Source: Thermoplasmata archaeon (GTDB taxonomy: Archaea > Thermoplasmatota > E2 > DHVEG-1). Taken from it: a DNA stretch of 64,000 bases. Position 1 is the stretch's first letter, and every line of letters begins with the position of its first letter. The DNA is taken from assembly GCA_020054495.1 (NCBI GenBank), contig JAHWGK010000010.1:1-64000 (forward strand). Direction: 5' to 3'. The position numbers and the translations under genes were made by a program. Positions 40,877 to 55,963 of the stretch are shown piece by piece. The notes under the pieces were generated by a model, which worked only from the letters and a program-made list of their open reading frames with translations, did no database searches and was not told the origin of the DNA.

Positions 40877-42273
40877 CAGTAGTTCGGCAAGTGAGTGATA
40901 CAAATTGACAATTGAATAACTTGTCGAATTCTTCTTTTATGTTCAAATTAGATATTTACATAGGATCACAGGAAATCGGCCAGTTCTAGATTGAAAAACC
41001 TGTTCTTTTAACCTAGCTTACGCTAACCAGATCGTTTGTTATCGTCCAAGAATTGAATCAGAAATAAAATCTTTAAATTCCTCAAGAATGATCACATATC
41101 CATCTTTATCCCAGCAGATTACAATGCTAAGTGTGATATTGCAGAGCTGCCATAGATTGTAGAGGAGTATGGAAAGCAATTGCAAAAGCAGCCGTATTGC
41201 ATAATTCCGTGAGCATGTTTTCCCACGGACTTCTTCTTTTACACGGTATCCTGTTTCTATACCCCAAACGACTTCGGTAACTATCTGCAATTTCCAATGC
41301 ATTACCTCTTGTTACAGGTATATTTGTTGCATAGGCAAAAGTGGTCCATTCATCATCTGGTTCCTTAGGCGGCTCAACAACAATGACAAAAGTGAATGTT
41401 GCAGAATCCTTGTATCGTTTAAGTGTATATTCAGCGGTCAATGAATAATGTTTTTCATATGGATGAGCTTGACAATTCTGTTTGAATTCCTGGATCATCT
41501 GATCTATCTTCTTGTTTCTTATTGCAGGGATTACAAATGGAGCAAAGAGTTCCTTTAATGCATTTATTGACTCAATGTTGAAGAACTCTCTATCCAAGAA
41601 CAACCTACTGATATCAACATGTTTTCTTGCCTCATTTACAAGAAAACGTATAATCTTCTTCTTAGAAGTAAATTGATGTAATGGTAAAGCAGCCAGTGTA
41701 AATCGTTTACCAGGTTCAACACATTCTAGGCTCGCATATCCATGCCCGAAATTTGTACCCCTTGCTCGTTTCATACCAAGGACATGACCATCTTTCTTTT
41801 TACCAAACCATGGAATTTTATGTTTATCTAAACCACACCATACTGTTCTGTTGAAAACATTATGTTCTTCAGCCTGTTTCAACAATGTCTGATTTAACTG
41901 TTGAAACACTGAGAACACTGTGTTTTCATTTAGTTTGTTAAGATGATAAAACACAGCATCACTAGATGGGCAGAAACCTTTTTTATCCCGTAATCTTTTG
42001 GAACTATATTCTATGAAGTTGTTATTTGAAACAGAGAAAACAACAGTGTTGATAATGTTCTTTTTTGAGTAGGTGCAGTTTTCTGCCATTGGTATCGGCA
42101 GACTGTTGACGAATTCTTTTCTGATAGATTTTTTAAGACATTTGCCTATATCTTTTTGTGTATGATGTGAGTGCATCTAGACATCCAAATTGTACTCATA
42201 TCATACACTCTCAAATAATTTTTATCAAAAAGACGAATTTGAGTTAGTCAAATTCTAGCTTGCCGAACTACTG
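40877..42273 (-). mobile_element. Insertion sequence with perfect 15-bp terminal inverted repeats
   Basis: CAGTAGTTCGGCAAG (40877-40891) and CTTGCCGAACTACTG (42259-42273) are perfect inverted repeats enclosing 1397 bp with one transposase gene. AATAAA occurs just outside both ends (3 nt off on the left), so a target duplication is possible but not certain. It landed in the gap between the promoter region of the giant protein and the 3' end of the tagged gene at 42313. The transposase type fits the IS4 superfamily, close to the archaeal ISH3-like group (inference). Confidence 0.88.
41039..42176 (-). pseudogene. IS4-superfamily (ISH3-like) transposase with a frameshift
   Basis: The intact frame runs from 42176 and carries CGLDKHKIPWFGKK (first Asp region) and SRLFLDREFFN (second Asp). 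At CGTTTGGGG (plus-strand 41262-41269) one extra T shifts the frame. Before it reads EIADSYRSR; the other frame continues WGIETGYRVKEEVRGKT, which restores the Y-x2-R-x3-E-x6-K signature with the catalytic Glu, and ends at 41039. As it stands the main frame lacks the catalytic Glu and stops at 41127. It is either a decayed copy, a programmed frameshift or an assembly error in a T/G run. Confidence 0.85.
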
Positions 42274-42312
42274 AATAAAGAAAAAAAGAAAAGAAGTAGA
42301 ATTTGGTTTTTA

Positions 42313-43566
42313 TTAATTTTGTAGTCCTAGTCGCATTATTAGTCGTTGTAGTATTGGAAACAGATTAGGATGACTTGTTAGGAAATTTAGGAATGGTGCG
42401 TTGATTACTCTGGCCTTTTTATAAGCATGAACATATGCCCAGTCATCATCCTTTACAATATAAGGCTCACAATCACATTGGGCTAAAGCCTCGGCATGGT
42501 TAGAATCAGTGCTACATTCTGGTCCTTCAACATGTGCCGTGAGGTTAATTACAATCTTCTGATTAGGTGATAAAGGTCCAGGGATTAACCAATATATTTC
42601 GTAAAAAGGTGGTTTATATTCGACTGAGTTGGGCTTTGGATCTGCACTGATATATTTTAGGCTATCATGCATTGTATCGTAAATGTTTATGTTAAATAAA
42701 TCACAGCATACTCCAGCATTTTGAATTATGATCTTAAATTTTGCATCTGTACATATTGGTAAATTTACAGCTGCAGGCTCAGAATCGGCTTGAACCCATT
42801 TTTCAAGACGCGGATCCCATACATATTTTTCGACATCGATGTTTGGATAACATTTTCTAGTTAACTGGAAACACATATCAGCGGGATTTCCTAGGACATC
42901 CTCTGAATCACTCCAATATGGAAAACCAAAATAATCCGATCCAAATACAGCTTGGTGCAGCAAGATCGGTTGATAATGACATCCCCACATAGACTGCGGG
43001 TATACAGAACCCTCACCCCAAATAGAAATCCAGAACTTATAACATCCTGGGAACATTATATTTTCTGGTAGATCAACAGACATCTCAAAGTATCCATCTC
43101 CAAGGTCTACCTTTTCGATCTCTTCCCAAGTATAGCAGAATGGCCCTGCAAAGCTAGGATCTTGAGGATGACTATCAGGTGCATTACCAGTACCATCATC
43201 GTTCATGAACGATATGCACCAATCAAATGGTTCAGGGTCACCGTTAAAGTAAGCACCAATCCAGTGCACATCACCTACTTCTGTATCTTCCTCAAAGTAG
43301 AAGTCATCTGCTGGATATGCATCAAGCGGATAATCTGGATCATACTGCGCGGCGAGCGAGTTATCATAATTCATTCCGTTGTCCCAGACAACAATTCCAT
43401 TTAGAGTCTGGGGACCGATTTGTCTATTTATAGTAGGATTTTCTGGGCATACAACTAGAAGTTGAGTATTATTGTTTATATGTGCTGTCACAGCAACAGT
43501 TGATAAAACTATACACAATGCTCCAAATAAAACACTTGCCTCTTTCAAAATATTTTTTTTATTCAT
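42313..43566 (-). CDS. Secreted Ig/DUF11-type surface protein with C-terminal tag
   Basis: 417 residues. A signal peptide (about 8-30) is followed by a beta-rich N-terminal domain (about 45-235, with TLNGIVVWDNGMNYDN and DDFYFEEDTEVGDVHWIGAY), which resembles domains of unknown function in other secreted proteins. A DUF11-like Ig domain follows (about 240-375, CTDAKFKIIIQNAGVCCDLF, ISADPKPNSVEY, HVEGPECSTDS). The C-terminus is the shared tag INAPFLNFLTSHPNLFPILQ with RLIMRLGLQN. No membrane helix. Promoter copy 1 lies upstream. The IS element inserted some 40 bp beyond its stop. Confidence 0.8.
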   Translation of the reverse strand: MNKKNILKEASVLFGALCIVLSTVAVTAHINNNTQLLVVCPENPTINRQIGPQTLNGIVVWDNGMNYDNSLAAQYDPDYPLDAYPADDFYFEEDTEVGDVHWIGAYFNGDPEPFDWCISFMNDDGTGNAPDSHPQDPSFAGPFCYTWEEIEKVDLGDGYFEMSVDLPENIMFPGCYKFWISIWGEGSVYPQSMWGCHYQPILLHQAVFGSDYFGFPYWSDSEDVLGNPADMCFQLTRKCYPNIDVEKYVWDPRLEKWVQADSEPAAVNLPICTDAKFKIIIQNAGVCCDLFNINIYDTMHDSLKYISADPKPNSVEYKPPFYEIYWLIPGPLSPNQKIVINLTAHVEGPECSTDSNHAEALAQCDCEPYIVKDDDWAYVHAYKKARVINAPFLNFLTSHPNLFPILQRLIMRLGLQN

Positions 43567-43623
43567 ATTTTTTTCTACCTCTCACTAACTATAAAATTAG
43601 CGTGGTTGTAATATATTATTTTC

Positions 43624-43692
43624 TTTTAAATGTATGCATAACAATCGTTAATTACAACAAAATGTTAATAAAAAAACTGATATGATTACATT
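43624..43692 (-). promoter_or_regulatory. Shared promoter/operator of the tagged-protein cluster, copy 1
   Basis: TTTTAAATGTATGCATA is followed by the near-palindrome TAACAATCGTTA (43639-43650), then ATTACAACAAAATGT and an imperfect downstream arm ATTACATTTTG. Read on the minus strand, the palindrome sits just upstream of the TATA element CATTTAAAAG. It precedes the gene starting at 43566. Confidence 0.8.
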
Positions 43693-43740
43693 TTGATTTC
43701 AATTTAAACAATTACTAAAAAAAGAAAAGAAGAAGGGGTT

Positions 43741-45009
43741 TTACAGTCTCATCAGTAATCTTTGTAGTATTGGAAACAGATTTAGATGCGACTCTATTTG
43801 TATATTATTATCCTTTTGCATACTATCTTTAAGGTTTTTACTAATTATCTTATCTAAAGAGCAAGCACCGATATAATTTTTAACAGGATCTACTAATGGG
43901 TAGTTGTCAATGTTACTAATCTCGATAACATATGGAGTAGTTCCAATCCCATTTGAGCCAGATGTTCCTGTATAATCATCCCAATAGTTGCCCATGTTGC
44001 TTGTGAAATATTTCCATTGGTAGAAGTAGTTTATTGGATTTGGCGAATTCCAGTTATTCAGACAAGTTTCATCAGTATAAGCGTTCACACTATTTCCAAT
44101 AAAGTCGTTGAGGTATATTTTGTTATCAGATGAGTATTCCCTGATGTTAATGCCATATTGATTATTTGATATATCATTGCAGGCTATTTGGTTGTTGCTT
44201 GGCTCAGAGAAGATATGAATACCATAAAAGTTATTTGATAAAATGTTGTTTTTTATTTGGTTGTTGTTTGACAACCTTGTAAGATAAATACCATAGTTAG
44301 TGTTTTCTGAGATTTCGTTGTTGATTATTTTATTTTCTGAAGACCAGAGGATAAAGATGCCTCTTGTGTTTTCAAAGATCTTGTTGTTTTTAATTTGGCT
44401 TTTATCCGAAGATGAGAGACGGATACCGTGCTCGTTTCCGAAGATCACGTTTTTGATTATTTCATTGTTTGATGATCCAGTTCCATCAATCACAATACCT
44501 TCTGCATCTGATCCTGTAATAGTAAATCCCTTTATCTTCACGTTATCAGCCATTATATAAAAGACAGCTCCATTTGGGTCTAAGGCCTGAACGGTTGTAG
44601 AAGCAGAACCCCATAGGGACATGATGGTTACACTCACATCAAACACAAATACATTTTCCACATAAGTTCCAGGCAACAATACAAGGACAATATCGCCAGA
44701 AGATGAAGCGTCTACTGCTTCTTGAATTGTTGGATATGGGAATGGCACTCCTCTTATAGTAGATGGAAAAGGCTGCTGTAATTGATTAAATTTTGTTGAT
44801 GCATGTGAAACCAACATTACATCAGAGAAAAAACTATTACGGTTCCCGTTTGAAACCTTCAACTGATCAATTTCATTTATGTTGCTTATATTTTTCGCAT
44901 CAAAATCCAAATTATTTTTTATACTTAAATTTTCCATCCCAGCAACAGGTAAAACAGTAGCGGCTATCAACAGCGTCGTTACTAAAATACCTACTATTTT
45001 TGTTTTCAT
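43741..45009 (-). CDS. Secreted beta-helix (NosD-like) protein with C-terminal tag
   Basis: About 422 residues from the ATG at 45009, behind the shared GGGAGGTAGGAAAAAT site; the frame opens at a GTG (45027) inside that site. The signal peptide is the cluster type KTKIVGILVTTLLIAATVLP. The beta-helix (about 85-380) starts FPYPTIQEAVDASSSGDIVL and has N-x-I repeats, ending MGNYWDDYTGTSGSNGIGTT. The C-terminus is ESHLNLFPILQRLLMRL, the shared tag with Leu in place of Pro and without the LGLQ end. Confidence 0.85.
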   Translation of the reverse strand: MKTKIVGILVTTLLIAATVLPVAGMENLSIKNNLDFDAKNISNINEIDQLKVSNGNRNSFFSDVMLVSHASTKFNQLQQPFPSTIRGVPFPYPTIQEAVDASSSGDIVLVLLPGTYVENVFVFDVSVTIMSLWGSASTTVQALDPNGAVFYIMADNVKIKGFTITGSDAEGIVIDGTGSSNNEIIKNVIFGNEHGIRLSSSDKSQIKNNKIFENTRGIFILWSSENKIINNEISENTNYGIYLTRLSNNNQIKNNILSNNFYGIHIFSEPSNNQIACNDISNNQYGINIREYSSDNKIYLNDFIGNSVNAYTDETCLNNWNSPNPINYFYQWKYFTSNMGNYWDDYTGTSGSNGIGTTPYVIEISNIDNYPLVDPVKNYIGACSLDKIISKNLKDSMQKDNNIQIESHLNLFPILQRLLMRL

Positions 45010-45065
45010 ATTTTTCCTACCTCCCACTAATTAACAAAATTAGCAGGATTGTAATATATTATTTT

Positions 45066-45113
45066 GTTTTAAAAGTATCCATAACAATCGTTAACTAAAT
45101 CAACAAAATTTGT
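45066..45113 (-). promoter_or_regulatory. Shared promoter/operator, copy 2
   Basis: TTTTAAAAGTATCCATAACA with the near-palindrome TAACAATCGTTA at 45082-45093, then a diverged downstream part (CAACAAAATTTGTAA). It serves the gene starting at 45009. Confidence 0.75.
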
Positions 45114-45179
45114 AAAAAAATTAGAAAGAAAAAAAAGAGAAGTTTTTAGATTTTTAGTAGACCAGCAATATTCCGGGTA

Positions 45180-46205
45180 TTAGGATGACTCGTAATCTGC
45201 AACAATGTACCAATGACCATTAAAATTACCATCACTGACCACAATGATGGAATCACATGGCTCTAGGGGGAATTCTGGAAAACCATTACAATCATCTATT
45301 AAATCGCCACTAGATGGTATGACATAAATAATTTCACCATAGTTGCCATCAATAAACTTGATTGTATATTCTCGACCGGGACAAGGATCGGCAGGTGGTA
45401 GTTTTACCCAGCCAACAGTATCTGGGGGATCCAGCTTCGCAAAGATGACGCTATCGTCATCAGTAATATCATAGGGAGTCAGCCAACTGGAACCTGCAAA
45501 AACGGTTGTAATGGCCGTGGCCACAGGACCATTGACATGTAATTTCGTAGTTGGATTCACCGTTCCGATGCCGACATTGCCGGTGTCGCCTCTGATAATC
45601 ATATTTAAAACTTCAGTAGCTACACCACCAGTAATGGTTTCATGCACAAACTCGATACTACCTGAAGGTTGAGTATTATCAGTATCATCGCTTGAGAATA
45701 TCCTTACGCCCCCATGTTTCCAGCCATTTGAATTTGGGGTTATAGAAATCCAACCACCTCCAATTGCTGCATTACTCTCAGCCTTGAGGCTAAGCGCACT
45801 ATAGCCTGTTCCTATGATTGTATTATACTCTCTACTTGTTAAATTCAGGTATCCCTTAAGGTCATATTTAAATTCTACATTCCCACCAACCACTTCTAAT
45901 TTACTTGTAGGATTTTTCGTTCCAATGCCGACATTACCACCATACTCCGCGCCAATGGCATACATATCTCCTCCAGGCCAGTAATGCCAATCTTCATCTA
46001 CAATACGCGATTGTTGTATCCAAGGGGTTTTATAAGGTGGTGGTTGAAGTGTAAGTATCCGATTACCAAAACTAGATGAATCATCAGATTCGGTTGGTGT
46101 TTCCACATCTTGGTTTCTTCCAACATTCATGTTCCCTGTTACTGGTAAAACAGCAGTTGCAATCAACAGCGTCATTACTAAAATACCTACTATTTTTGTT
46201 TCCAT
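45180..46205 (-). CDS. Secreted tail-fibre-like protein; C-terminal tag lost by frameshift
   Basis: 341 residues with the cluster-type signal peptide ETKIVGILVMTLLIATAVLP. Two copies of NVGIGTxNPTxKLxVxG (near residues 90-107 and 212-228) are typical of phage tail-fibre and trimeric adhesin shaft domains. The C-terminal part (about 240-341, SSWLTPYDITDDDSV to HWYIVADYESS) resembles a small beta domain. Just before the stop, another frame reads ITSHPNTRNIAGLLKI, whose TSHPN equals the start of the shared tag, with 12 identical bases (AGTCATCCTAAT) to the gene at 42313. A small indel has probably removed the tag. Confidence 0.78.
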   Translation of the reverse strand: METKIVGILVMTLLIATAVLPVTGNMNVGRNQDVETPTESDDSSSFGNRILTLQPPPYKTPWIQQSRIVDEDWHYWPGGDMYAIGAEYGGNVGIGTKNPTSKLEVVGGNVEFKYDLKGYLNLTSREYNTIIGTGYSALSLKAESNAAIGGGWISITPNSNGWKHGGVRIFSSDDTDNTQPSGSIEFVHETITGGVATEVLNMIIRGDTGNVGIGTVNPTTKLHVNGPVATAITTVFAGSSWLTPYDITDDDSVIFAKLDPPDTVGWVKLPPADPCPGREYTIKFIDGNYGEIIYVIPSSGDLIDDCNGFPEFPLEPCDSIIVVSDGNFNGHWYIVADYESS

Positions 46206-46261
46206 ATTTTTTCCTACCTCCCACTAATATAAAATTAGTAAAATTGATATACAATATTTTC

Positions 46262-46332
46262 TTTTAAATGTATGCATAACAATCGTTAATTACAACAAAA
46301 TGTAAGAAAAAAACCGATATGGTTACATTTTG
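46262..46332 (-). promoter_or_regulatory. Shared promoter/operator, copy 3
   Basis: TTTTAAATGTATGCATAACA with TAACAATCGTTA at 46277-46288. A perfect 10-bp inverted repeat follows: CAAAATGTAA (46296-46305) and TTACATTTTG (46323-46332), 17 bp apart. It precedes the gene starting at 46205. Confidence 0.82.
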
Positions 46333-46417
46333 ATTTCAATTTCAACATTACTAAGTTTTTTAAAATAAACCATAAATAAAAATAAAGAAAAAAAGAGAGG
46401 TAGGATTTGTTTTTTTT

Positions 46418-48352
46418 TTATTGCAGCCCTAAACGTAATAGTAGCAGGCGTTGTAGTATTGGAAACAGATTTGGATGCTGCTGTAAAAATGTTCCTATTA
46501 ACAGATAAACAGGTCTTGTCTTTTCAAAAGAGTTTTCCTCGGTTTTCTCCATTGTTTCGAGAATCCATACGCAGTCTTGCCCTATGATTGCAGTACCACC
46601 ATCGTCCTCATTGAGTTCACCGGTTATTATAAGTGGAATTGTTAATCCTAGTCCATCACTAAGACCTAGGGTTTCTACTACATCTCGAGTTTTAAATTTG
46701 AGTGTAAGGTCCATTATGCCATCGCCATTGAGATCGTGACAGCCACATTCTTCTTCCCCTGTATAAAGCGTAGCGACATCTTCGTAACTCCAGCGAAGCG
46801 GTGGAACACCTTCTTCATATCCCTCACGTGTTAAAAGAATCGTCTCTGGGTCAATAGTGGTAACATCGAAATCTTCTGTACCACAGATAGCAACTGGCAA
46901 TACACCTTTTCCCTTAGGATTAATTGGGTTCGGACAGGAACCAGGTTTGATATCCACATCGACATTTATCACAGGTGGCGGTGGAGTTATTTTTTCTAAT
47001 GTCAGTAGTGCCCATACCGTTGATAGAAGTTTTCCAGACATGTAACCTGGGTGTCCATCTGTCCAGACATAACATGGTGAACTAGGCCATGAACCATCTG
47101 GATTCTGATCAGCTAAAAGAATTGTCGCAAGTTCATCAAACCAGTCATGCTCCAGTATATTATCGCCATCAAGATCAAGGAGGTTTTCCCCACTATACTC
47201 TAAACCTTTCATAAGACAGTACATTGCTTGATAATGATTGCTCAACCCCATATCTTCATCTACTAAGCCATCTCCATCGTTGTCCGCCCAATCATATGGA
47301 TCTTCATCAACTAATCCATCCATGTCGTCATCAATTCCAGCATCTCCTCTAAATCCAGGTTGAAGATTTGCATCATTCCAATGCCTCTCAATATAATCCA
47401 TTGCATACTGGAAACGTAGAATACTTGAGTCATCTCCATAGAACGTCATTTCAAAGATTAAGTTACCTGTTTTGAGCTCATTAACCCAGCTAGATGCAAC
47501 CGCGTATCCAGAGCCACCATCAGGTGTAGGTTCCCCACCGTCATCTCCTGCGCCTTGATCGTTTTGTATATAATCAATCCAGACATCGAGCTCGTCTTTA
47601 ACCCACTGCGGAACATTACAACCAAATCCTTCTGCAGCAGCCAGTCCAAGGTAGGCATATCCTGAATTTGAGTTGTCAGCACCCCAACATGCATTGTCTT
47701 GAGCACCATATGAATAACCGCCTTCATAGGTTCCAACATCTGCCTGTGCAAAAGCAAGCCAATCAACGCAATCTTGAGCGATTTCACCAAACGTATCAGG
47801 ATTCATATCACCATCGTAATCTATTAATCCCTCGTTTATATGATTTGGATCCTCACTCGCTGCAAGAGCCATTAGACAAATTCCAGTACTATATATAGTA
47901 TAAGGGGAAAAGTAAATTCCATAGCCATTTACTCTTGTATCAGGATCATCATCTGTTCCACTTGCCCCTAACGTATGATCTTGATTACCAATCGTTTGTT
48001 TAATTGCATAAAGTGGGTTTCCTGCTCCGTCAACGCTAAATAAATATTTCCATCCATCAATAACATTGGTGGCATATTCATAGTAATCCGGCTCTGCTGA
48101 ATCTGTTTCAAAAGGATCCAATTCTAATTCAATCGCACGATCCTGAAGCTTAATGAGAACAAACCCAGTACGTGGCACGTCCTGCCATTTTCCATCAACT
48201 GGATCTTGCTGTGATACAAGCCAAGCAATTCCATTAGATATAGCTAGTTCTATGTCAGCTTCATCAACAGCACTTACATCTGATGGTACTATCGAAAAAA
48301 CGGTCAACACCAGCGTCAAACAAACTACTATTGAGATAGATTTTCTTTTCAT
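46418..48352 (-). CDS. Secreted alpha/alpha-toroid (prenyltransferase-like) protein with C-terminal tag
   Basis: About 644 residues from the ATG at 48352, placed 6 nt after TTGGAGG; the frame opens at 48379. A signal peptide (about 1-28) is followed by a helical repeat domain of the squalene-cyclase/terpenoid-toroid type (about 30-465: ISNGIAWLVSQQDPVDGKW, LADQNPDGSWPSS, GKLLSTVWALLTLE), interrupted by a calcium-like Asp loop (DDDMDGLVDEDPYDWADNDG). A domain common in secreted proteins follows (about 470-590, DIKPGSCPNPINPKGKGVLP). The C-terminus is GTFLQQHPNLFPILQRLLLL plus RLGLQ, the shared tag with one extra Leu. Catalysis is not evident. Confidence 0.82.
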   Translation of the reverse strand: MKRKSISIVVCLTLVLTVFSIVPSDVSAVDEADIELAISNGIAWLVSQQDPVDGKWQDVPRTGFVLIKLQDRAIELELDPFETDSAEPDYYEYATNVIDGWKYLFSVDGAGNPLYAIKQTIGNQDHTLGASGTDDDPDTRVNGYGIYFSPYTIYSTGICLMALAASEDPNHINEGLIDYDGDMNPDTFGEIAQDCVDWLAFAQADVGTYEGGYSYGAQDNACWGADNSNSGYAYLGLAAAEGFGCNVPQWVKDELDVWIDYIQNDQGAGDDGGEPTPDGGSGYAVASSWVNELKTGNLIFEMTFYGDDSSILRFQYAMDYIERHWNDANLQPGFRGDAGIDDDMDGLVDEDPYDWADNDGDGLVDEDMGLSNHYQAMYCLMKGLEYSGENLLDLDGDNILEHDWFDELATILLADQNPDGSWPSSPCYVWTDGHPGYMSGKLLSTVWALLTLEKITPPPPVINVDVDIKPGSCPNPINPKGKGVLPVAICGTEDFDVTTIDPETILLTREGYEEGVPPLRWSYEDVATLYTGEEECGCHDLNGDGIMDLTLKFKTRDVVETLGLSDGLGLTIPLIITGELNEDDGGTAIIGQDCVWILETMEKTEENSFEKTRPVYLLIGTFLQQHPNLFPILQRLLLLRLGLQ

Positions 48353-48590
48353 TTTTTCCTCCAATTTTTTTTCTTTCATCTACATTTTTTACCCTGCGAG
48401 GTAGGGCACACAAGGTTTGTTCCGCCTCGCTCGTCAAAAACAAATCGTACATTTCAAATATCTAATCGGTTTCTTAAGATAATACCAGCTTTAAAAAAAA
48501 GCTATAGAACAAGCTACCTTTTTCTAATTCAAACAATATCCATTTCTTTTTATCTACCTCCCCAAAAGATACAAACATTTGTAATAAATT
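48353..48590 (-). other. Unusually long leader with a GC-rich hairpin
   Basis: Between the shared promoter (copy 4) and the start at 48352 lie about 240 bases, where the sister genes have about 60. GCGAGG (48396-48401) and CCTCGC (48425-48430) form a perfect 6-bp stem in an otherwise AT-rich region. The usual GGGGAGGTAG ribosome site is present near 48570 but leads only to ATG-GAT-ATT-GTT-TGA. So the original start region seems to have been displaced by inserted sequence, or the leader is regulatory. Confidence 0.5.
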
Positions 48591-48591
48591 A

Positions 48592-48669
48592 TTTAAATTT
48601 AAATGTTTGCATAACAATTGTTAATAGCAACAAAATGTTAATAAAAAAACTGATATGGTTACATTCTGA
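48592..48669 (-). promoter_or_regulatory. Shared promoter/operator, copy 4
   Basis: TTTAAATTTAAATGTTTGCA is followed by TAACAATTGTTA at 48612-48623, here a perfect 12-bp palindrome, then CAACAAAATGTTAA and GGTTACATTCTG. It serves the gene starting at 48352. Confidence 0.8.
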
Positions 48670-48755
48670 TTTCAATTTCAACATTACTAAGTTTTTTAAA
48701 ATAAACCATAAATAAAAATAAAGAAAAAAAGAAAAGAAGTAGAATTTGGTTTTTA

Positions 48756-50183
48756 TTAATTTTGTAGTCCCAATCGCATTATTAGTCGTTGAAATATTGG
48801 GAATAGATTAGGATGACTTTGTAGGAAGTTTAGGAATGGTATGTTGATTATTTTGTTTCTTGGCATATCTACTGTTAATGTTGCCTCAGGACCAACTAAA
48901 CCTTCTGTGTCTTCAGCTGAAGCTGTAATGATATAAGTTCCTTCTTCACTCCAAGTGTGTTGTACTTGTACATCTGTACCCGAGGGGTTAAAAGCAGTCG
49001 TTTCAGCGTCGCCATCGTCCCAGTCGATAATGTACCTGACATTATCACCATCAGGATCCACTGCATTAAATACATATGTATGAGGAGTTCCTACTTCCCC
49101 ACTTGTTGGACCATCAATACTTGGTGCTTCTGGCGGTTCATTTTCAATTGGGCAGATGACAACTGCAAACTCAACGAAGGTCCAATCAAAATCTTCATTA
49201 GGAGGATAACCAGTGACTCTCCATTCGAAGTCAAGGTTTGAACATGGACACTGAAATCGAACACCATAAATGTCATGTGAAACAAATTGTGCATCGTTAT
49301 GATTTGATGAACTTGGATCTTCAATATCAAAGAATGGGTCGCTAAATGCTATTTGAATCGGTATGCCTTCCGTTACCCCTGCGCAAGTAACATAATGTGT
49401 TACTCTCTGTATACAAGTACCATCAACATCATCATATTGTCCTAGCTGTAGAATAACATTCTGACTCCGCATCACCTCATCTTTTATAAAACCCCAGGTT
49501 GGTGCTTCAAATACATTCACCTCAAACGTATCATCGAGACCAGTGTCAACAAGCCAGTCATTAATAGCATTCTCCATATTATTAACTGGGGTATTACCAT
49601 TGATGTTGGTTTCCATTGCTATAGCCAAATTTTCAATGAGGAGCGGAACATTGTCTGCCGCATGGTCATCTCCAACCCCATAATCTTCAACAAGTGGAAA
49701 TTGATCTTCTCCATCACCAGGTGTCCCATCTGGATCTGCAAATTGAGAATCAAACCACCAGAAACAATTGGCTACTGATACTGGTCCACAAAACGCCCAC
49801 ATATACTCATCGTCGGGTTGTTCCCATGTATCAAGGTAACAGTCTGGTCCTGGTGCCACAATAACATCCCCTGGATTTACTGGGTTTCCTACAGCGACAA
49901 CCTGTATGTCATCCCCAATTGCTGGTGTATCTGCGATACCATTTCCTCCAATAATAGGTTCACATACACTCCCCCACCACACAGGTGGTTGCGATTGATT
50001 GAAATCAGGCATACCACCAGGAATATGCGGTGCATAGTTTGGAAATGGTTCTTTCCAAAACCATTCCTCCTCATTTGAAACAGCTTTACTCTCGCATTCT
50101 TCGTTTATCATTCCTACCACTGGTAAAACAGCAGCGGCTATCAACAGCGTACAAACTAAAATACCTACTATTTTTTTATTCAT
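48756..50183 (-). CDS. Secreted cysteine-peptidase-like (C39-type) protein with PKD domain and C-terminal tag
   Basis: 475 residues with the cluster-type signal peptide NKKIVGILVCTLLIAAAVLP. A papain/C39-like domain spans about 100-340: Cys132 in FCGPVSVANCFWWFD, His263 in VTHYVTCAGV, followed by IAFSDPFFD. A PKD domain follows (about 348-445, PSIDGPTSGEVGTPHTYVFN). The C-terminus is MPRNKIINIPFLNFLQSHP then NLFPIFQRLIMRLGLQN, the shared tag. It starts 5 nt after the stop of the gene upstream, so the two form an operon. Peptidase activity is likely but unproven. Confidence 0.8.
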   Translation of the reverse strand: MNKKIVGILVCTLLIAAAVLPVVGMINEECESKAVSNEEEWFWKEPFPNYAPHIPGGMPDFNQSQPPVWWGSVCEPIIGGNGIADTPAIGDDIQVVAVGNPVNPGDVIVAPGPDCYLDTWEQPDDEYMWAFCGPVSVANCFWWFDSQFADPDGTPGDGEDQFPLVEDYGVGDDHAADNVPLLIENLAIAMETNINGNTPVNNMENAINDWLVDTGLDDTFEVNVFEAPTWGFIKDEVMRSQNVILQLGQYDDVDGTCIQRVTHYVTCAGVTEGIPIQIAFSDPFFDIEDPSSSNHNDAQFVSHDIYGVRFQCPCSNLDFEWRVTGYPPNEDFDWTFVEFAVVICPIENEPPEAPSIDGPTSGEVGTPHTYVFNAVDPDGDNVRYIIDWDDGDAETTAFNPSGTDVQVQHTWSEEGTYIITASAEDTEGLVGPEATLTVDMPRNKIINIPFLNFLQSHPNLFPIFQRLIMRLGLQN

Positions 50184-50188
50184 ACTTT

Positions 50189-51496
50189 TTATCGCCCTAA
50201 ATTAAATATCTGAAATATTCTAAACACGTTTGGAAATAATTCAAATACCCTAAATTTCAACAGACTTTTACCGTAGTTCGATGGCGCGTTCCCATTGGAA
50301 TCTGTCTTTACTAGCCAAAGGTCATGATAGAGACCTGAAGCTTTGAATCCAGATAAAATATAGCCACCATCGTTGGTCTGCTTAACTGATAAGGCTATGT
50401 CAGAACCTCTTCCACCATAGAATATAATCCATTCCTCTTCACCTTCACTGTTTGTTTTAATCAACATTGCATCTAATTTAATATTATGTGGGCCATCTCC
50501 ACAAATAATATAGCCACCTTCGTTTGTCTGTTGAATTGAGTTTCCCCTCTCCCAACCCAATCCGCCGAAGGTTTTATCCCATAATAACTCTCCATTGCTA
50601 TCAGTTTTTATCAGCCATACATCATAGGAACCAACACCTTTAGATTCTGTTTCACCAGTGATAATATAGCCACCATCATCAGTTGTTAATACTGAATGCC
50701 CATAATCATATCCAGCTCCTCCAAACGTTTTATCCCATAGTAATTCACCATCACTATCAGTTTTAATTAACCAAAAATCAAATTCACCAGCACCATATGA
50801 TGCAGTCCAACCAATTAGGATATATCCACCATCTGGGGTCTGTTGAACAGATTCTCCTCTATCGTAATCATTTCCTCCAAAAGTTTTATCCCATTCAATA
50901 TTTCCCTCAGAATCAGTTTTAACTAAATAAATATCTCTTTCCCCAGCTCCATAAGAAACAGTTACTCCTATAAGGACGTAACCACTATCACTTGTCTGCT
51001 TCACGTCATAGGCTGTATCAAAATCATTGCCACCAAAAGTTTTATCCCATAATTTATTCCCATCTGCATCAATTTTAATAAGCCAAATGTCACTCCCCCC
51101 ATTACCATATGAATAAGTTTTTCCTGCTATGATATAACCTCCATCATTTGTATGTTGAATCGAAAGTCCAAGGTCGGTCTTATCTCCTCCAAAAAATTTT
51201 TCCCACATCATATTTCCATTGATATCAGTTTTAATCAACCAAATATCTTCTTCACCAGAACCAAAAGATAAAGTATCTCCACAAACAATGTAACCACCAT
51301 CAGAAGTTTGTAAAACTGAATTACCAACATCAGATTGATGACCACCAAAAGTCCTCATCCATTTATCACCATTTGTAAGAGGACTATTTTTATCAGTATC
51401 TATGCTAATAGATATCTCATTTACTTGCCCAACAACATGAATTGCAGCGACAATCAACAGCATACATACAAAAATACCTACTATTTTTGTTTTCAT
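50189..51496 (-). CDS. Secreted propeller-like repeat protein with variant C-terminal tag
   Basis: 435 residues with the cluster-type signal peptide KTKIVGIFVCMLLIVAAIHV. About seven repeats of some 51 residues follow, each QQTxDGGYIxxG ... DxWLIKTDSxGxxxWDKTFGG, probably a beta-propeller. The protein at 17476-18768 has the same repeat. The C-terminus LLKFRVFELFPNVFRIFQIF plus NLGR is a clear variant of the tag (Leu-Phe-Pro-x-x-x-x-Ile-x-Gln). Promoter copy 5 precedes it, and the cysteine-peptidase-like gene follows 5 nt downstream. Confidence 0.83.
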   Translation of the reverse strand: MKTKIVGIFVCMLLIVAAIHVVGQVNEISISIDTDKNSPLTNGDKWMRTFGGHQSDVGNSVLQTSDGGYIVCGDTLSFGSGEEDIWLIKTDINGNMMWEKFFGGDKTDLGLSIQHTNDGGYIIAGKTYSYGNGGSDIWLIKIDADGNKLWDKTFGGNDFDTAYDVKQTSDSGYVLIGVTVSYGAGERDIYLVKTDSEGNIEWDKTFGGNDYDRGESVQQTPDGGYILIGWTASYGAGEFDFWLIKTDSDGELLWDKTFGGAGYDYGHSVLTTDDGGYIITGETESKGVGSYDVWLIKTDSNGELLWDKTFGGLGWERGNSIQQTNEGGYIICGDGPHNIKLDAMLIKTNSEGEEEWIIFYGGRGSDIALSVKQTNDGGYILSGFKASGLYHDLWLVKTDSNGNAPSNYGKSLLKFRVFELFPNVFRIFQIFNLGR

Positions 51497-51551
51497 CTTT
51501 TTTCCTACCGCCCACTAATATAAAATTAGTAAAATTGATATACAATATTTT

Positions 51552-51615
51552 CTTTTAAATGTATGCATAACAATCGTTAATTACAACAAACGGTAATAAA
51601 AAAACGCTTGTTTTT
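51552..51615 (-). promoter_or_regulatory. Shared promoter/operator, copy 5
   Basis: TTTTAAATGTATGCATAACA with TAACAATCGTTA at 51568-51579, then TTACAACAAACGGTAA. The downstream inverted-repeat arms are diverged here. It drives the operon 51496-48756. Confidence 0.78.
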
Positions 51616-51649
51616 TTACATTCTAATTTAAAATTTCAAATAAAACAAA

Positions 51650-52006: not shown

Positions 52007-52741
52007 TCAACACTTTAGTTTCTTTTCAATGTACTTCATTATTTTAACATGTTCTTTGATATTAATGCCTACGTTCATAGCTAGGATGTGTTCCAACCTA
52101 TCTCTTTGACTTAATCTTCCAATGAGTTTTGGTATGCGCCTTAGCACCATTTCTGCCCAATCATCATTTTCTTTAATCACTTCAACTACTTTATCAACAT
52201 CACAAACATCCAGTAAAACCTGTGAATCTAGATTATTTTTATAATCCATAGGAAGACCAAGCTTTACAGCAGCCATATGTTCTGCAGGCGGTACCTTCAC
52301 CATTACTTTGTTTCCGCCCATATGATAAGATATAGTTCTAGGTTCGTAGTCAGTCAAGCTAAATTCAAAATAATGAGGGGTTTGGAATTCTTTTATTCTT
52401 GGTCCTGATATTTCAATTCTCAATTCTATTTTTTCTATATCATTTTTCATGTTTTCAGGAATCTTGATTCTTGGATCATATTTATGATAGAATTGGACGC
52501 CCCATTCATTTCTACGCATATTCATTCCAACACTTGATAATTTAGACTCAATTTCCTTCATTTTACTAATCTCTGCCACTCCATCAATATCTAATGTGTA
52601 ACGACCATGCTTATCCCCAATCAAAGCTCTAACAGCCCAGCCTCCTATCACTATAATGTCATCTGCTACATACTCTAAAACAGACAAAGAAGAATCTTCG
52701 ATATCTTCCTTTACCAGATCGGGAAAGTCTTCAAAATTCAT
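52007..52741 (-). CDS. Nucleotidyltransferase-fold protein of the second AbiE-like module
   Basis: 244 residues. IIVIGGWAVRALIGD and YTLDIDGVAE give the Gly-Gly-Trp and Asp-x-Asp elements of a nucleotidyltransferase. VPPAEHMAAVKLGL and LDVCDVDKVVEVI follow, as in nucleotidyltransferase toxins of the AbiEii/DUF6036 type. Its ATG overlaps the stop of the upstream winged-helix gene by 4 nt (ATGA), as in the module at 32-34 kb, although the two transferases are only distantly similar. Confidence 0.72.
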   Translation of the reverse strand: MNFEDFPDLVKEDIEDSSLSVLEYVADDIIVIGGWAVRALIGDKHGRYTLDIDGVAEISKMKEIESKLSSVGMNMRRNEWGVQFYHKYDPRIKIPENMKNDIEKIELRIEISGPRIKEFQTPHYFEFSLTDYEPRTISYHMGGNKVMVKVPPAEHMAAVKLGLPMDYKNNLDSQVLLDVCDVDKVVEVIKENDDWAEMVLRRIPKLIGRLSQRDRLEHILAMNVGINIKEHVKIMKYIEKKLKC

Positions 52742-53757
52742 AGCGCTCTAACTCCATGTTTAATTGCTCCAATATCCAAGTAAAGATCCACATTCCACTT
52801 CTTTGTGTATTTTTCTTCCCATCCAGATTTCCCATAGTTCATCTCATCTTTTAAAAAGACATATTTTCTTTTTGAAATTTTTTTATGAAAATTCTTAACT
52901 ATTTCATTTGGAACAATTCCTCTCTTAATATCGTTAATGATGTCAAGATAGCATCCAATCTGATTAACAAGATTCTTTTTAATGGCAAGTTGAAGTAAAG
53001 CATCATAATTGATATTTTTATATGCTAGAATTTTGATGCAAACATCCTCAACACCTTCCGAAGTCATTAATTTATTGATAAAAATCTCCTCAAGAGTTTG
53101 TTTTGTAGCAACGCTTTCAAGAATTGCAATTTTATCTTTTTTCCCCTTTATCATAAAACCAGTTCTTTTAATTGTTAAACTTTCATCGATCTTGTCATAA
53201 AGGATTTTTTCAATATTATCTGGAGTTGTAATAATCTCCTCAAAAGGAGTTGCCCCTGGCGTATAAATTCTATCATCTGCATCTGTTCTTTTTAACATTG
53301 TGCCTAGTAATACGTTTAGTGGATGGTCTTTCACTTTTACTGCAATGATTGGTTTTCTTTTTTCAAATTTTACCAATCCGTAGCTAGAAAGAACTTTCAG
53401 GAATTTTCTCACAGATTTTTCAGAGAGTTTGGTTTTTTGTGAGATATCTTCAACATTATTAAAGAAATCAAGCGTTCTCCATATTAAAAAAGTATTTTCC
53501 CTTAGAGGGAGCTCAGGATCTACTCCATAACTCAATGATTTGATGAAAAATTCTTTCAACTTTTGATTCTTGTAATCCTTTGAGATGTCCAATCTTGTTT
53601 CTCCATTGGTTTTAATTTTAACGATTTTTGCATCTTTTAACATATCCTCAATTGCATTATAAATGGATGCTGGCGAGTAAGGTAACCTTTTAATAACGTT
53701 ATTAATTGTCTGTGGTTTGATGCAAATTAAACCAAAGATTGCTGATCTGATATTCAT
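52738..53757 (-). CDS. Winged-helix protein of the second AbiE-like module
   Basis: 339 residues. The first winged helix is about 1-60 (TINNVIKRLPYSPASIYNAI), the second about 90-150 (DISQKTKLSEKSVRKFLKVL, SYGLVKFEKRKPIIAV). The C-terminal half is helical and mixed. It sits upstream of the transferase gene with a 4-nt overlap, the order typical of antitoxin-toxin pairs. A 9-bp inverted repeat flanks its promoter, consistent with autoregulation. Confidence 0.65.
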   Translation of the reverse strand: MNIRSAIFGLICIKPQTINNVIKRLPYSPASIYNAIEDMLKDAKIVKIKTNGETRLDISKDYKNQKLKEFFIKSLSYGVDPELPLRENTFLIWRTLDFFNNVEDISQKTKLSEKSVRKFLKVLSSYGLVKFEKRKPIIAVKVKDHPLNVLLGTMLKRTDADDRIYTPGATPFEEIITTPDNIEKILYDKIDESLTIKRTGFMIKGKKDKIAILESVATKQTLEEIFINKLMTSEGVEDVCIKILAYKNINYDALLQLAIKKNLVNQIGCYLDIINDIKRGIVPNEIVKNFHKKISKRKYVFLKDEMNYGKSGWEEKYTKKWNVDLYLDIGAIKHGVRAL

Positions 53758-54002: not shown

Positions 54003-55304
54003 TTAGAGTTTAAGGAATCGTTGCAGTAGCTGGAATATCATTGGATGCTGTTGTATGAAATCTAGGAATGGTGTGTTAATTGCTCGGTTCCTTGGCATAG
54101 TAACTTCAAGTTCCCCCCAATCACTTTCAGCACCATATTTATCAATTAATTTTGCTCTAATTGTAAAAGTTCCTTGTTCACTCCAACTATGAGTAAGTGT
54201 AAAACCTCCTCCTGATTCTGCAAATCCTTCATCAATGCCTCCATCGTTCCATTCTACGTGATAAGTCATATCATCACCCTCAGGATCAACTGCAGTAAAA
54301 TCATAATCATAAAATTCTAGGACATTGCCACTTAATGGACCATCAATAGTTGGTTTTGTTGGAGGGTCATTTCCATTTATCTGCATTAATGGATATCTGT
54401 CTTGATTATTTCCTGCTGATATATTATAAGGAGTATCTCCTATACCATCTCCGTCATTATCTATTCCATCATAATCATCCCAGAAATTACCTCCAGTAGG
54501 ATAACCGTTATCCCAATCATTAATACATGAATCTCTAGCATTTTCATCATTATCATAGAAAGTATTATGGAAAAATAAATTATTATTTGATGATTCTCTT
54601 AAAAAAACACCTCGTTTGCCATTATTGGAAATATTGTTTCTATTGACATAGTTATAATAACTTGAATTATAAAAACAGATACCGTTACCACCATTTATAG
54701 TTACTATATTATTAATAAAAGTATTATTATTAGAATGGTCTAAAAATATTCCATTATCATAATTAAAAGTAATAAAGTTATTATAAATATTGTTACTTTT
54801 TGAATTGAGATGCAAAACAATTCCTTCATCATTGTTTAATAAAATATTATTTGAAATATCACAAAAAGTGACATTATCTAATCTAATACCACCTCTTAAA
54901 CCAGCACTCTCATTTGTGCCTTCTATAGTAAATCCCATAATAATAACGTTATCTGATTTTACATCAAAAACATGATTATTTGCATCAATTGCATGAATAA
55001 TTGTATCATAAGGGTTTTGACTATAGGATTTAATTATTAATGATAAATTAACAATCACATTTTCATAATAAATACCACTAAATACAATAATAGTATCCCC
55101 AATACTAGCGTTTCCAATGGCTTCTTGAATTTTACTATAGTTTCCAGGTCCAGACCCCCCAACATATAAAGTAGTTCCACGACCATTAATTTTAGAAATC
55201 GTTGTGTTTTTTAAATTAATAGTAAATCCAGTAACAACGTTTGCTCCAACTAAAAGTATTATTATTCCTATTACCAGTCCTTTTCTAAAAACAAAATTGT
55301 TCAT
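54003..55304 (-). CDS. Secreted beta-helix/PKD protein with C-terminal tag
   Basis: 433 residues behind AAAGGAGGTAG. A signal peptide (about 8-27) is followed by a NosD-like beta-helix (about 45-310: GNYSKIQEAIGNASIGDTII, many NNI repeats, FWDDYDGIDNDGDGIGDTPY) and a PKD-like domain (about 315-405). The C-terminus is MPRNRAINTPFLDFIQQHPM then IFQLLQRFLKL, the tag in a shorter form. The MPRN linker is shared with the protein at 48756-50183. Promoter copy 6 lies upstream. Confidence 0.85.
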   Translation of the reverse strand: MNNFVFRKGLVIGIIILLVGANVVTGFTINLKNTTISKINGRGTTLYVGGSGPGNYSKIQEAIGNASIGDTIIVFSGIYYENVIVNLSLIIKSYSQNPYDTIIHAIDANNHVFDVKSDNVIIMGFTIEGTNESAGLRGGIRLDNVTFCDISNNILLNNDEGIVLHLNSKSNNIYNNFITFNYDNGIFLDHSNNNTFINNIVTINGGNGICFYNSSYYNYVNRNNISNNGKRGVFLRESSNNNLFFHNTFYDNDENARDSCINDWDNGYPTGGNFWDDYDGIDNDGDGIGDTPYNISAGNNQDRYPLMQINGNDPPTKPTIDGPLSGNVLEFYDYDFTAVDPEGDDMTYHVEWNDGGIDEGFAESGGGFTLTHSWSEQGTFTIRAKLIDKYGAESDWGELEVTMPRNRAINTPFLDFIQQHPMIFQLLQRFLKL

Positions 55305-55341
55305 TTTTTTCTACCTCCTTTCAGTTATAATATAATATTTT

Positions 55342-55413
55342 AATTTAAATGTATCCATAACAGTTGTTAACTACAACAAAATGTAAGAAAAACACCGATA
55401 TACTTACATTTTG
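55342..55413 (-). promoter_or_regulatory. Shared promoter/operator, copy 6
   Basis: TTTAAATGTATCCATAACA with TAACAGTTGTTA at 55358-55369, then the perfect inverted repeat CAAAATGTAA (55377-55386) and TTACATTTTG (55404-55413), arms 17 bp apart as in copy 3. It precedes the gene starting at 55304. Confidence 0.8.
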
Positions 55414-55564
55414 ATTTCAATTTCAACATCACTAAGTTTTTTTAATTATTGCTGTTCAAATCGAGAAGGAAACATGAGTTTACTAGTAAAAGTTATACCT
55501 TTTTATTTAAAAACAATAAAAAAAAGGGGGGGAGGTTGAAATTAATTAAACCTCATGAACTTTT

Positions 55565-55963
55565 TTAATTACAGTTTTTGATACCAAATATGAATGGTCC
55601 AAATACAAAACCTGTGCCCATCCAAGTCTCTGCATAATCAAAATCTATGGTAATATCAATTTTTCCAAGACCAAATACAAAATCACTAGTTTCAGAAATT
55701 TCAGAAGCTTTGTAATCAAGAAAATCTATTTTACCAGATTCTGTTATATCTATATTTCCAAACACCCCTCCTTTCACAGAAACACTATATTCAATGTCAT
55801 TAAGTGATGTTTCTCCAGTATTTTCCATTAATATACTAATATGTCCAATTCCACCATTAACTTCTAATATCTCTATTAATTTTTGTTGTTCATCGTCAGC
55901 AACAGCTCCAAGTCCACCTAGGACTAAAAACCCCACAACAAAAAGTGGCAATATTTTCCTCAT
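55565..55963 (-). CDS. Small secreted protein of unknown family
   Basis: 132 residues behind GGAGGAAAAAAC. A signal peptide (about 1-20, LPLFVVGFLVLGGLGAVA) is followed by a beta-rich domain with Gly-rich strands (GHISILMENTGETSLNDIEY, GVFGNIDITESGKID, FVFGPFIFGIKNCN). No anchor or tag. The central Asn-Thr-Gly turn resembles small Ig-like domains (NEAT/CARDB-like), but I cannot name the family. Confidence 0.7.
   Translation of the reverse strand: MRKILPLFVVGFLVLGGLGAVADDEQQKLIEILEVNGGIGHISILMENTGETSLNDIEYSVSVKGGVFGNIDITESGKIDFLDYKASEISETSDFVFGLGKIDITIDFDYAETWMGTGFVFGPFIFGIKNCN

Follow-up and report, generated by a model that had tools for sequence, protein, structure and literature searches.

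Seven genes on the minus strand of one archaeal contig (42313, 43741, 45180, 46418, 48756, 50189, and 54003, designated here by their first coordinate; Table 1) encode exported proteins that share parts of their ends although their middles are unrelated folds. Does this array represent one fixed frame for expression, export, and tagging, into which new passengers are swapped, as a sequence-only reading of the DNA had proposed, or do the ends move separately? The window, that is the whole stretch of DNA analysed, comprises 64,000 nucleotides (G000:C11:1-64000) of G000, a 2.72-Mb MAG of 248 contigs with 34% GC from an uncultured sediment archaeon. MBG-D-like archaea are abundant protein degraders of anoxic sediments, and the source genome likely belongs to this group (Thermoprofundales/MBG-D), because 3300003432D is among its nearest relatives and because structure 4XED stems from an MBG-D genome. 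The closest named relatives of a housekeeping protein are 'Thermoplasmatales/Thermoplasmata archaeon' MAGs, including 3300003432D, which is a published Thermoprofundales (MBG-D) MAG; the same paper lists SCGC AB-540-F20, the source of 4XED, as an MBG-D genome, and 4XED is the closest solved structure to the PKD domain encoded here. Among the genomes compared, G001 belongs to the same genus as G000, and G007 is closed, a single contig of 2.32 Mb.

Table 1. Features of the array and its flanks (window coordinates)
Feature	Position	Strand	Remarks
IS element	40877..42273	-	transposase 41127-42176 between 15-nt perfect terminal inverted repeats (CAGTAGTTCGGCAAG)
Tag and 3' flank block	42274..42412	-	92% over 134 nt to 48717-48855
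Gene 42313	42313..43566	-	exported protein; weak DUF7901, then DUF11-like; KEAxVLL-family signal peptide; full tag
Promoter/5' leader block of 42313	43567..43710	-	94% to C169:30823 leader over 144 nt; ends at ATG
Gene 43741	43741..45009	-	NosD-type beta-helix protein; KIVGILV signal peptide; shortened tag
Promoter/RBS block of 43741	45011..45120	-	RBS 45011-45025
Gene 45180	45180..46205	-	tail-fibre-like protein; KIVGILV signal peptide; tag absent
Promoter/RBS block of 45180	46208..46361	-	
Gene 46418	46418..48379	-	653-aa exported protein, toroid-like; no Pfam match; own signal peptide; no PKD; full tag
Orphan 5' frame	48547..48697	-	promoter block and RBS-like site, then four-codon ORF
Gene 48756	48756..50183	-	cysteine-peptidase-like (label of the sequence-only reading); KIVGILV signal peptide; PKD; full tag
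Full tag of 48756	48759..48875	-	MPRNKIINIPFLNFLQSHPNLFPIFQRLIMRLGLQN
Gene 50189	50189..51496	-	SBBP-type propeller; KIVGIFV signal peptide; degenerate tag FELFPNVFRIFQIFNLGR
Promoter/RBS block of 50189	51499..51639	-	
Gene 54003	54003..55304	-	second beta-helix protein; FRKGL signal peptide; PKD; full tag
Promoter block of 54003	55330-55442	-	same promoter family

Pfam recognises propeller repeats, PKD domains, and the NosD beta-helix in the array; no assignment was obtained for the passengers of 45180, 46418, and 48756. For 48756, a homologue with 47% identity across the whole length is present in G010 (C3:28419), and 45180 has an N-terminal relative in G004 (C27:4354), which likewise lacks the tag. 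The start of 43741 is ATG 45009; GTG 45027 falls inside the ribosome binding site. A signal peptide of the type KIVGI(L/F)V...LLI had been claimed for four genes and is indeed found in 43741, 45180, 48756, and 50189. The list of four was incomplete, since 46418, with its own signal peptide and tag, lies between them. The C-terminal tag, thought to be common to most of the four, is missing from the tail-fibre-like gene, degenerate in the propeller gene, and shortened in the beta-helix gene. Near-identical DNA around the stops of 42313 and 48756 was confirmed, but 42313 has another signal peptide (NILKEASVL) and lies outside the interval then considered. Next to these genes, at 52007-53757, a nucleotidyltransferase-like gene adjoins a winged-helix-like gene. 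This pair, which is possibly accessory and toxin-antitoxin-like, is kept in G010 and G012 and not in the same genus.

At the 5' ends, the leaders of 42313, 43741, 45180, 50189, and 54003 are members of a single repeated element that contains a TATA-like box and a ribosome binding site; this element is also found in the 3' flank of 48756. The promoter blocks are 79 to 94% identical; their 35-nt core yielded four matches in the window and none in any shuffle. The ribosome binding site GGGAGGTAGGAAAAA gave six matches with up to two mismatches, 0.15 being expected. It had been reported for three genes, but it is exact in only two; the third copy has one mismatch (GGGCGG) and the others have two. 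All these similarities, those of the signal peptides and 3' ends included, are far above chance. The claim of a common promoter region also needs restriction, since 48756 is devoid of its own promoter and its start is separated by 6 nt from the stop codon of 50189, the gene before it. The element is not tied to one signal peptide. It precedes other families in 42313 and 54003 and, elsewhere in the genome, in C169:30823, the leader of which was compared by gapped alignment, as small indels made an ungapped identity profile uninformative. The leaders of 45180 and C169:30823 are 93% identical over 193 nt in the longer alignment, and the similarity ends exactly at the ATG, the signal peptides being unrelated. 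In 45180 and 50189, leader and signal peptide together form a common block. The orphan 5' frame looks like a frame displaced or stripped of its gene; it is located about 170 nt upstream of 46418, a gene with its own signal peptide. The shared leaders also contain a perfect 9-bp inverted repeat (AAAATGTAA...TTACATTTT) ahead of the TATA-like box, at 46297-46331 and 55378-55412, which is a possible regulator site.

Comparisons over the whole genome revealed that such ends are shared as DNA, one module at a time. Single-module blocks of 80 to 95% identity occur between genes without detectable similarity in their middles. Besides the block joining 42313 and 48756, in which the same codon is used at 22 of the 26 shared residues and both edges are sharp, tag and 3' flank are 95% identical over 150 nt in C122:2642 and C185:11656, and a PKD domain alone is shared by C109:1639 and C139:6625 of G001 (90% over 299 nt), genes with different passengers and tags. 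One or two 30-nt windows suffice at the block edges for identity to drop from about 0.8-1.0 to 0.2-0.6. When six genomes were analysed together, edges clustered close to the start codon and around the stop, and also at +60 to +80, where the signal peptide ends, at -320 to -380 (start of PKD), and at -80 to -120 (start of the tag). The breakpoint counts refer to pairs and not to independent events.

The same passengers were detected in different frames in related genomes. Residues 1-264 of C88:18318 in G000 match C128:5908 of G001 (65%), and residues 245-940 match C173:912 of G001 (63%), where they follow another signal peptide; judged by these alignments, C88:18318 is a chimera relative to G001. 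A passenger of this type is contained in 46418 in a third frame. The 50189 propeller occurs with a full, a degenerate, or no tag; in G007 the tag is full and in G002 degenerate, and in G001 the propeller stands behind a different signal peptide and in front of an Ig-like C-terminal module. Homologues of the 42313 passenger have other C-terminal ends in G001 (C128:10814 and C106:3077) and G010 (C3:20791 and C77:3263); in G001, this passenger is joined either to PKD and tag or to the Ig-like module, and in G010 to a tag. When homologous passenger pairs with classifiable signal peptides were compared, the signal-peptide family differed in 15 out of 52 (about 29%) and was kept in the other 37 (71%, with 0.32 for random pairs). 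Exchange is thus real, yet most linkages between signal peptide and passenger are stable. Ancient stable orthologues, the finding that would speak against swapping, do exist, C171:6243 being a syntenic one with its tag included, but not all genes are of this kind.

From these data, we consider it rather probable that the array is part of a dispersed modular secretome, in which ends and passengers are re-paired by recombination and the tag serves as an anchor or retention signal after export. Exported proteins would combine a promoter and 5' leader, a signal peptide of one family or another, and a passenger, in many cases with a PKD domain added, and would end in one of three or more C-terminal modules. 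Since diverged copies of the DNA for these modules are spread over the genome, ends and passengers could be re-paired when such copies undergo ectopic homologous recombination or gene conversion. At the level of aligned DNA, the shared blocks have their edges at module borders and flank unrelated middles, and identical passenger types stand in different frames; homologous recombination as the agent of exchange is what we infer from this pattern. Constant ends on different passengers and breakpoints at the borders of signal peptide and tag, both anticipated by the sequence-only reading, are borne out by the relatives, by the sharp edges, and by synonymous codons that agree far above expectation. 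Its single fixed frame at one locus is not: promoter, signal peptide, PKD, and tag move separately and are dispersed over the genome, with signal peptides of several families and C-terminal modules of at least three kinds. The earlier interpretation is therefore partly supported; it names the right kind of arrangement, but confines it too closely to one place and makes it too rigid, as it described one cassette site instead of a dispersed secretome. A further-reaching version, in which a new non-transmembrane sorting tag with its own putative receptor or processing machinery is combined with ongoing genome-wide module exchange that makes new surface and secreted proteins, is tentative, and we would hold it possible rather than probable.

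Plain tandem duplication, after which the middles diverged beyond recognition and the ends were kept by selection, could explain why several genes of like signal peptide and leader lie in tandem and why intergenic blocks are most alike among neighbours. It is already disfavoured, and we regard it as unlikely, since the middles are unrelated folds between ends of 90% identity rather than diverged copies, some blocks find their best partners outside this contig (C169, C185), and sharing proceeds one module at a time.

Equally unlikely is that selection alone, exerted through a common regulator, terminator, and sorting machinery, keeps the ends alike without any copying. The leader with its TATA-like box and its inverted repeat, a candidate binding site, would fit this explanation, as would the conservation of tags across genera and the only modest rise of average codon agreement in tags (0.54 versus 0.42). 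In the specific pairs examined, however, 80 to 100% of the shared residues use the same codon, 35 to 42% being expected from codon usage, a match that selection on the protein alone does not account for. Similarity also extends into the 3' flank and into far-upstream sequences, including the terminator of the preceding gene. Part of the 80 to 95% block identity could nevertheless reflect selection on promoters, terminators, and tags, which counts against re-pairing of modules by recombination. Strong homogenisation of tags across the genome was considered as well and is not seen within the genus, where similarity is 0.55 inside a genome and 0.54 between genomes.

For the array as a whole, a counterpart was searched in relatives. 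Neither the locus nor its flanking genes were found in G001; in G010 (C7) and G012 (C4) the flanking nucleotidyltransferase pair is present, but no such array beside it. Among the genomes compared, no swap was caught at one position in two genomes. No recombinase stood out in the list of open reading frames around the locus, and the IS transposase is the only mobile gene identified. The insertion site of this IS element is the T-rich terminator of 42313, 39 nt past the stop codon, and no clear target duplication is visible; its C-terminal 35 codons recur with 100% identity at the end of contig C169. A second, multi-copy repeat starting with ATGATAATTCATGAGGGTTATGAACCTCGTTCATAGCC is located at about 15646-15712 of L050 and at eight contig ends (C205, C203, C178, C166, C155, C190, C66, and C227). 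At three or more of these contig ends, it begins 20 to 30 nt past the stop codon of a tag gene, and it is probably an unassembled mobile element favouring T-rich terminators. The positions of both elements behind tag genes would suit a transposon-driven process, in which IS elements inserting into T-rich terminators carry or rearrange the ends. Such a process is improbable, because IS elements are missing from the edges of most shared blocks, and the edges coincide with borders of coding modules instead of IS ends. An artefact of assembly or binning, with short-read contigs misjoined at repeats, is very improbable even for a MAG of 248 contigs with many tag genes at contig ends, since the copies are 80 to 95% identical and not identical, and since single-contig G007 has tag blocks that are 77 to 89% alike between loci hundreds of kb apart, which argues against mis-assembly.

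The most novel part of this modular secretome is the tag, which the earlier reader barely mentioned. This commonest C-terminal module consists of about 30 residues on a flexible linker, with the consensus MPRNKAINxPFLxFLxxHPNLFPILRxLLxLGL. In G000, 50 to 57 matches were obtained with one query and 82 with a broad profile; the profile detected 66 in G001, 83 in G010, and 54 in closed G007. Tag-rich genomes, all of one Thermoplasmatota family and including G000, G001, G002, G004, G007, G010, G043, G045, G046, and G052, contain 15 to 83 matches each, and no match was obtained in G011, G020, G021, G023, and G042 of this family. In nearly all genomes of other families searched there were none, the exceptions being three matches in one f11 genome and single ones in two f7 genomes. 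Among the families searched, the tag is thus essentially specific to this one, which is probably Thermoprofundales/MBG-D. Searches with 24 tags against NCBIfam and Pfam gave no match above chance, and a PDB sequence search with the tag gave no match. Searches of literature outside subscription journals yielded no account of the tag or of swapped ends, and the short C-terminal tag is apparently undescribed so far.

Carriers of the tag are diverse. Passengers of 39 tag proteins of G000 include C25, S8, M28, C1, and S15 peptidases, a metallophosphatase, beta-helix and propeller proteins, and laminin-G and H-type lectin domains. A survey of both termini covered 64 complete tag proteins from G000 and G001, each 250 aa or longer, and 63 of them have a signal-peptide-like N-terminus. 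None of the 64 has a C-terminal TM segment, which is present in 26 untagged signal-peptide proteins, and for this reason the tag may take the place of a TM anchor. Two or more other C-terminal modules, which end in VRKFL/VWKFF and GPFxIV, never occur on the same protein as the tag.

An AlphaFold2 model of PKD plus tag shows the PKD domain (pLDDT about 97), then a linker, and then two short helices (103-111 and 115-125, pLDDT 61-72). With a mean hydrophobicity of 0.02 to 0.36 and a moment of 0.38 to 0.63, the helices are amphipathic and not TM-like. The tag probably works as an amphipathic surface anchor that is not cleaved off, or as a sorting or recognition helix for a putative receptor; after export, it would hold enzymes and adhesins at the cell surface.

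C-terminal homology common to many unrelated exported proteins of a genome is the general trait of lineage-specific sorting or anchoring tags, and it is present here. A short lineage-specific C-terminal domain on dozens of unrelated signal-peptide proteins per genome recalls PEP-CTERM/exosortase and archaeal PGF-CTERM/archaeosortase. Those ends are tripartite, with a motif, a transmembrane helix, and a basic cluster (PMC3237569); the present tag has no transmembrane helix with a basic cluster behind it, and no NCBIfam tag model matches it. Archaeosortase (PF09721) was not found in tag-rich G002, G004, G007, and G008 and was found in tag-poor G003 and G019, so that its presence does not follow the tag and it was rejected as the tag's enzyme. 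Surface proteins of the LPXTG/sortase type in Gram-positive bacteria are similarly modular, with common export and anchoring ends and exchangeable middles, but the tag proteins are without LPXTG; sortase (PF04203) was absent from all 40 genomes, controls being detected, and was rejected likewise. Sequence and hydropathy of the tag do not agree with the GlyGly-CTERM/rhombosortase type, which has a Gly-rich motif, a TM helix, and a basic end. The C-terminal secretion domains of T9SS (Por) in Bacteroidota resemble the tag in residing on secreted C25 peptidases and other proteins, and in an architecture unlike that of tripartite tags. T9SS domains are larger and serve an outer-membrane system; the present tag is archaeal, has about 30 residues, and is without Pfam or NCBIfam match. 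Also comparable to the proteins described here are the PKD-domain extracellular peptidases of MBG-D/Thermoprofundales (PDB 4XED; PMC6461988), with the same PKD fold at 41% identity and the same C25, S8, and C1 classes, which were reported as expressed extracellular enzymes (PMC6461988).

Being attached to up to about 80 exported proteins per genome, the tag offers a handle on how MBG-D-like archaea hold or release their extracellular peptidases. It predicts members of one surface or secretion route, provides an annotation model, and defines a search for partner proteins. Module exchange, in turn, would be a way for an archaeal secretome to gain proteins by re-pairing ready-made ends. In the window, a small secreted protein encoded at 55565-55963 ends in an alternative C-terminal module (GLGKIDIT...GPFIF), which is also found on C25-type proteins elsewhere.
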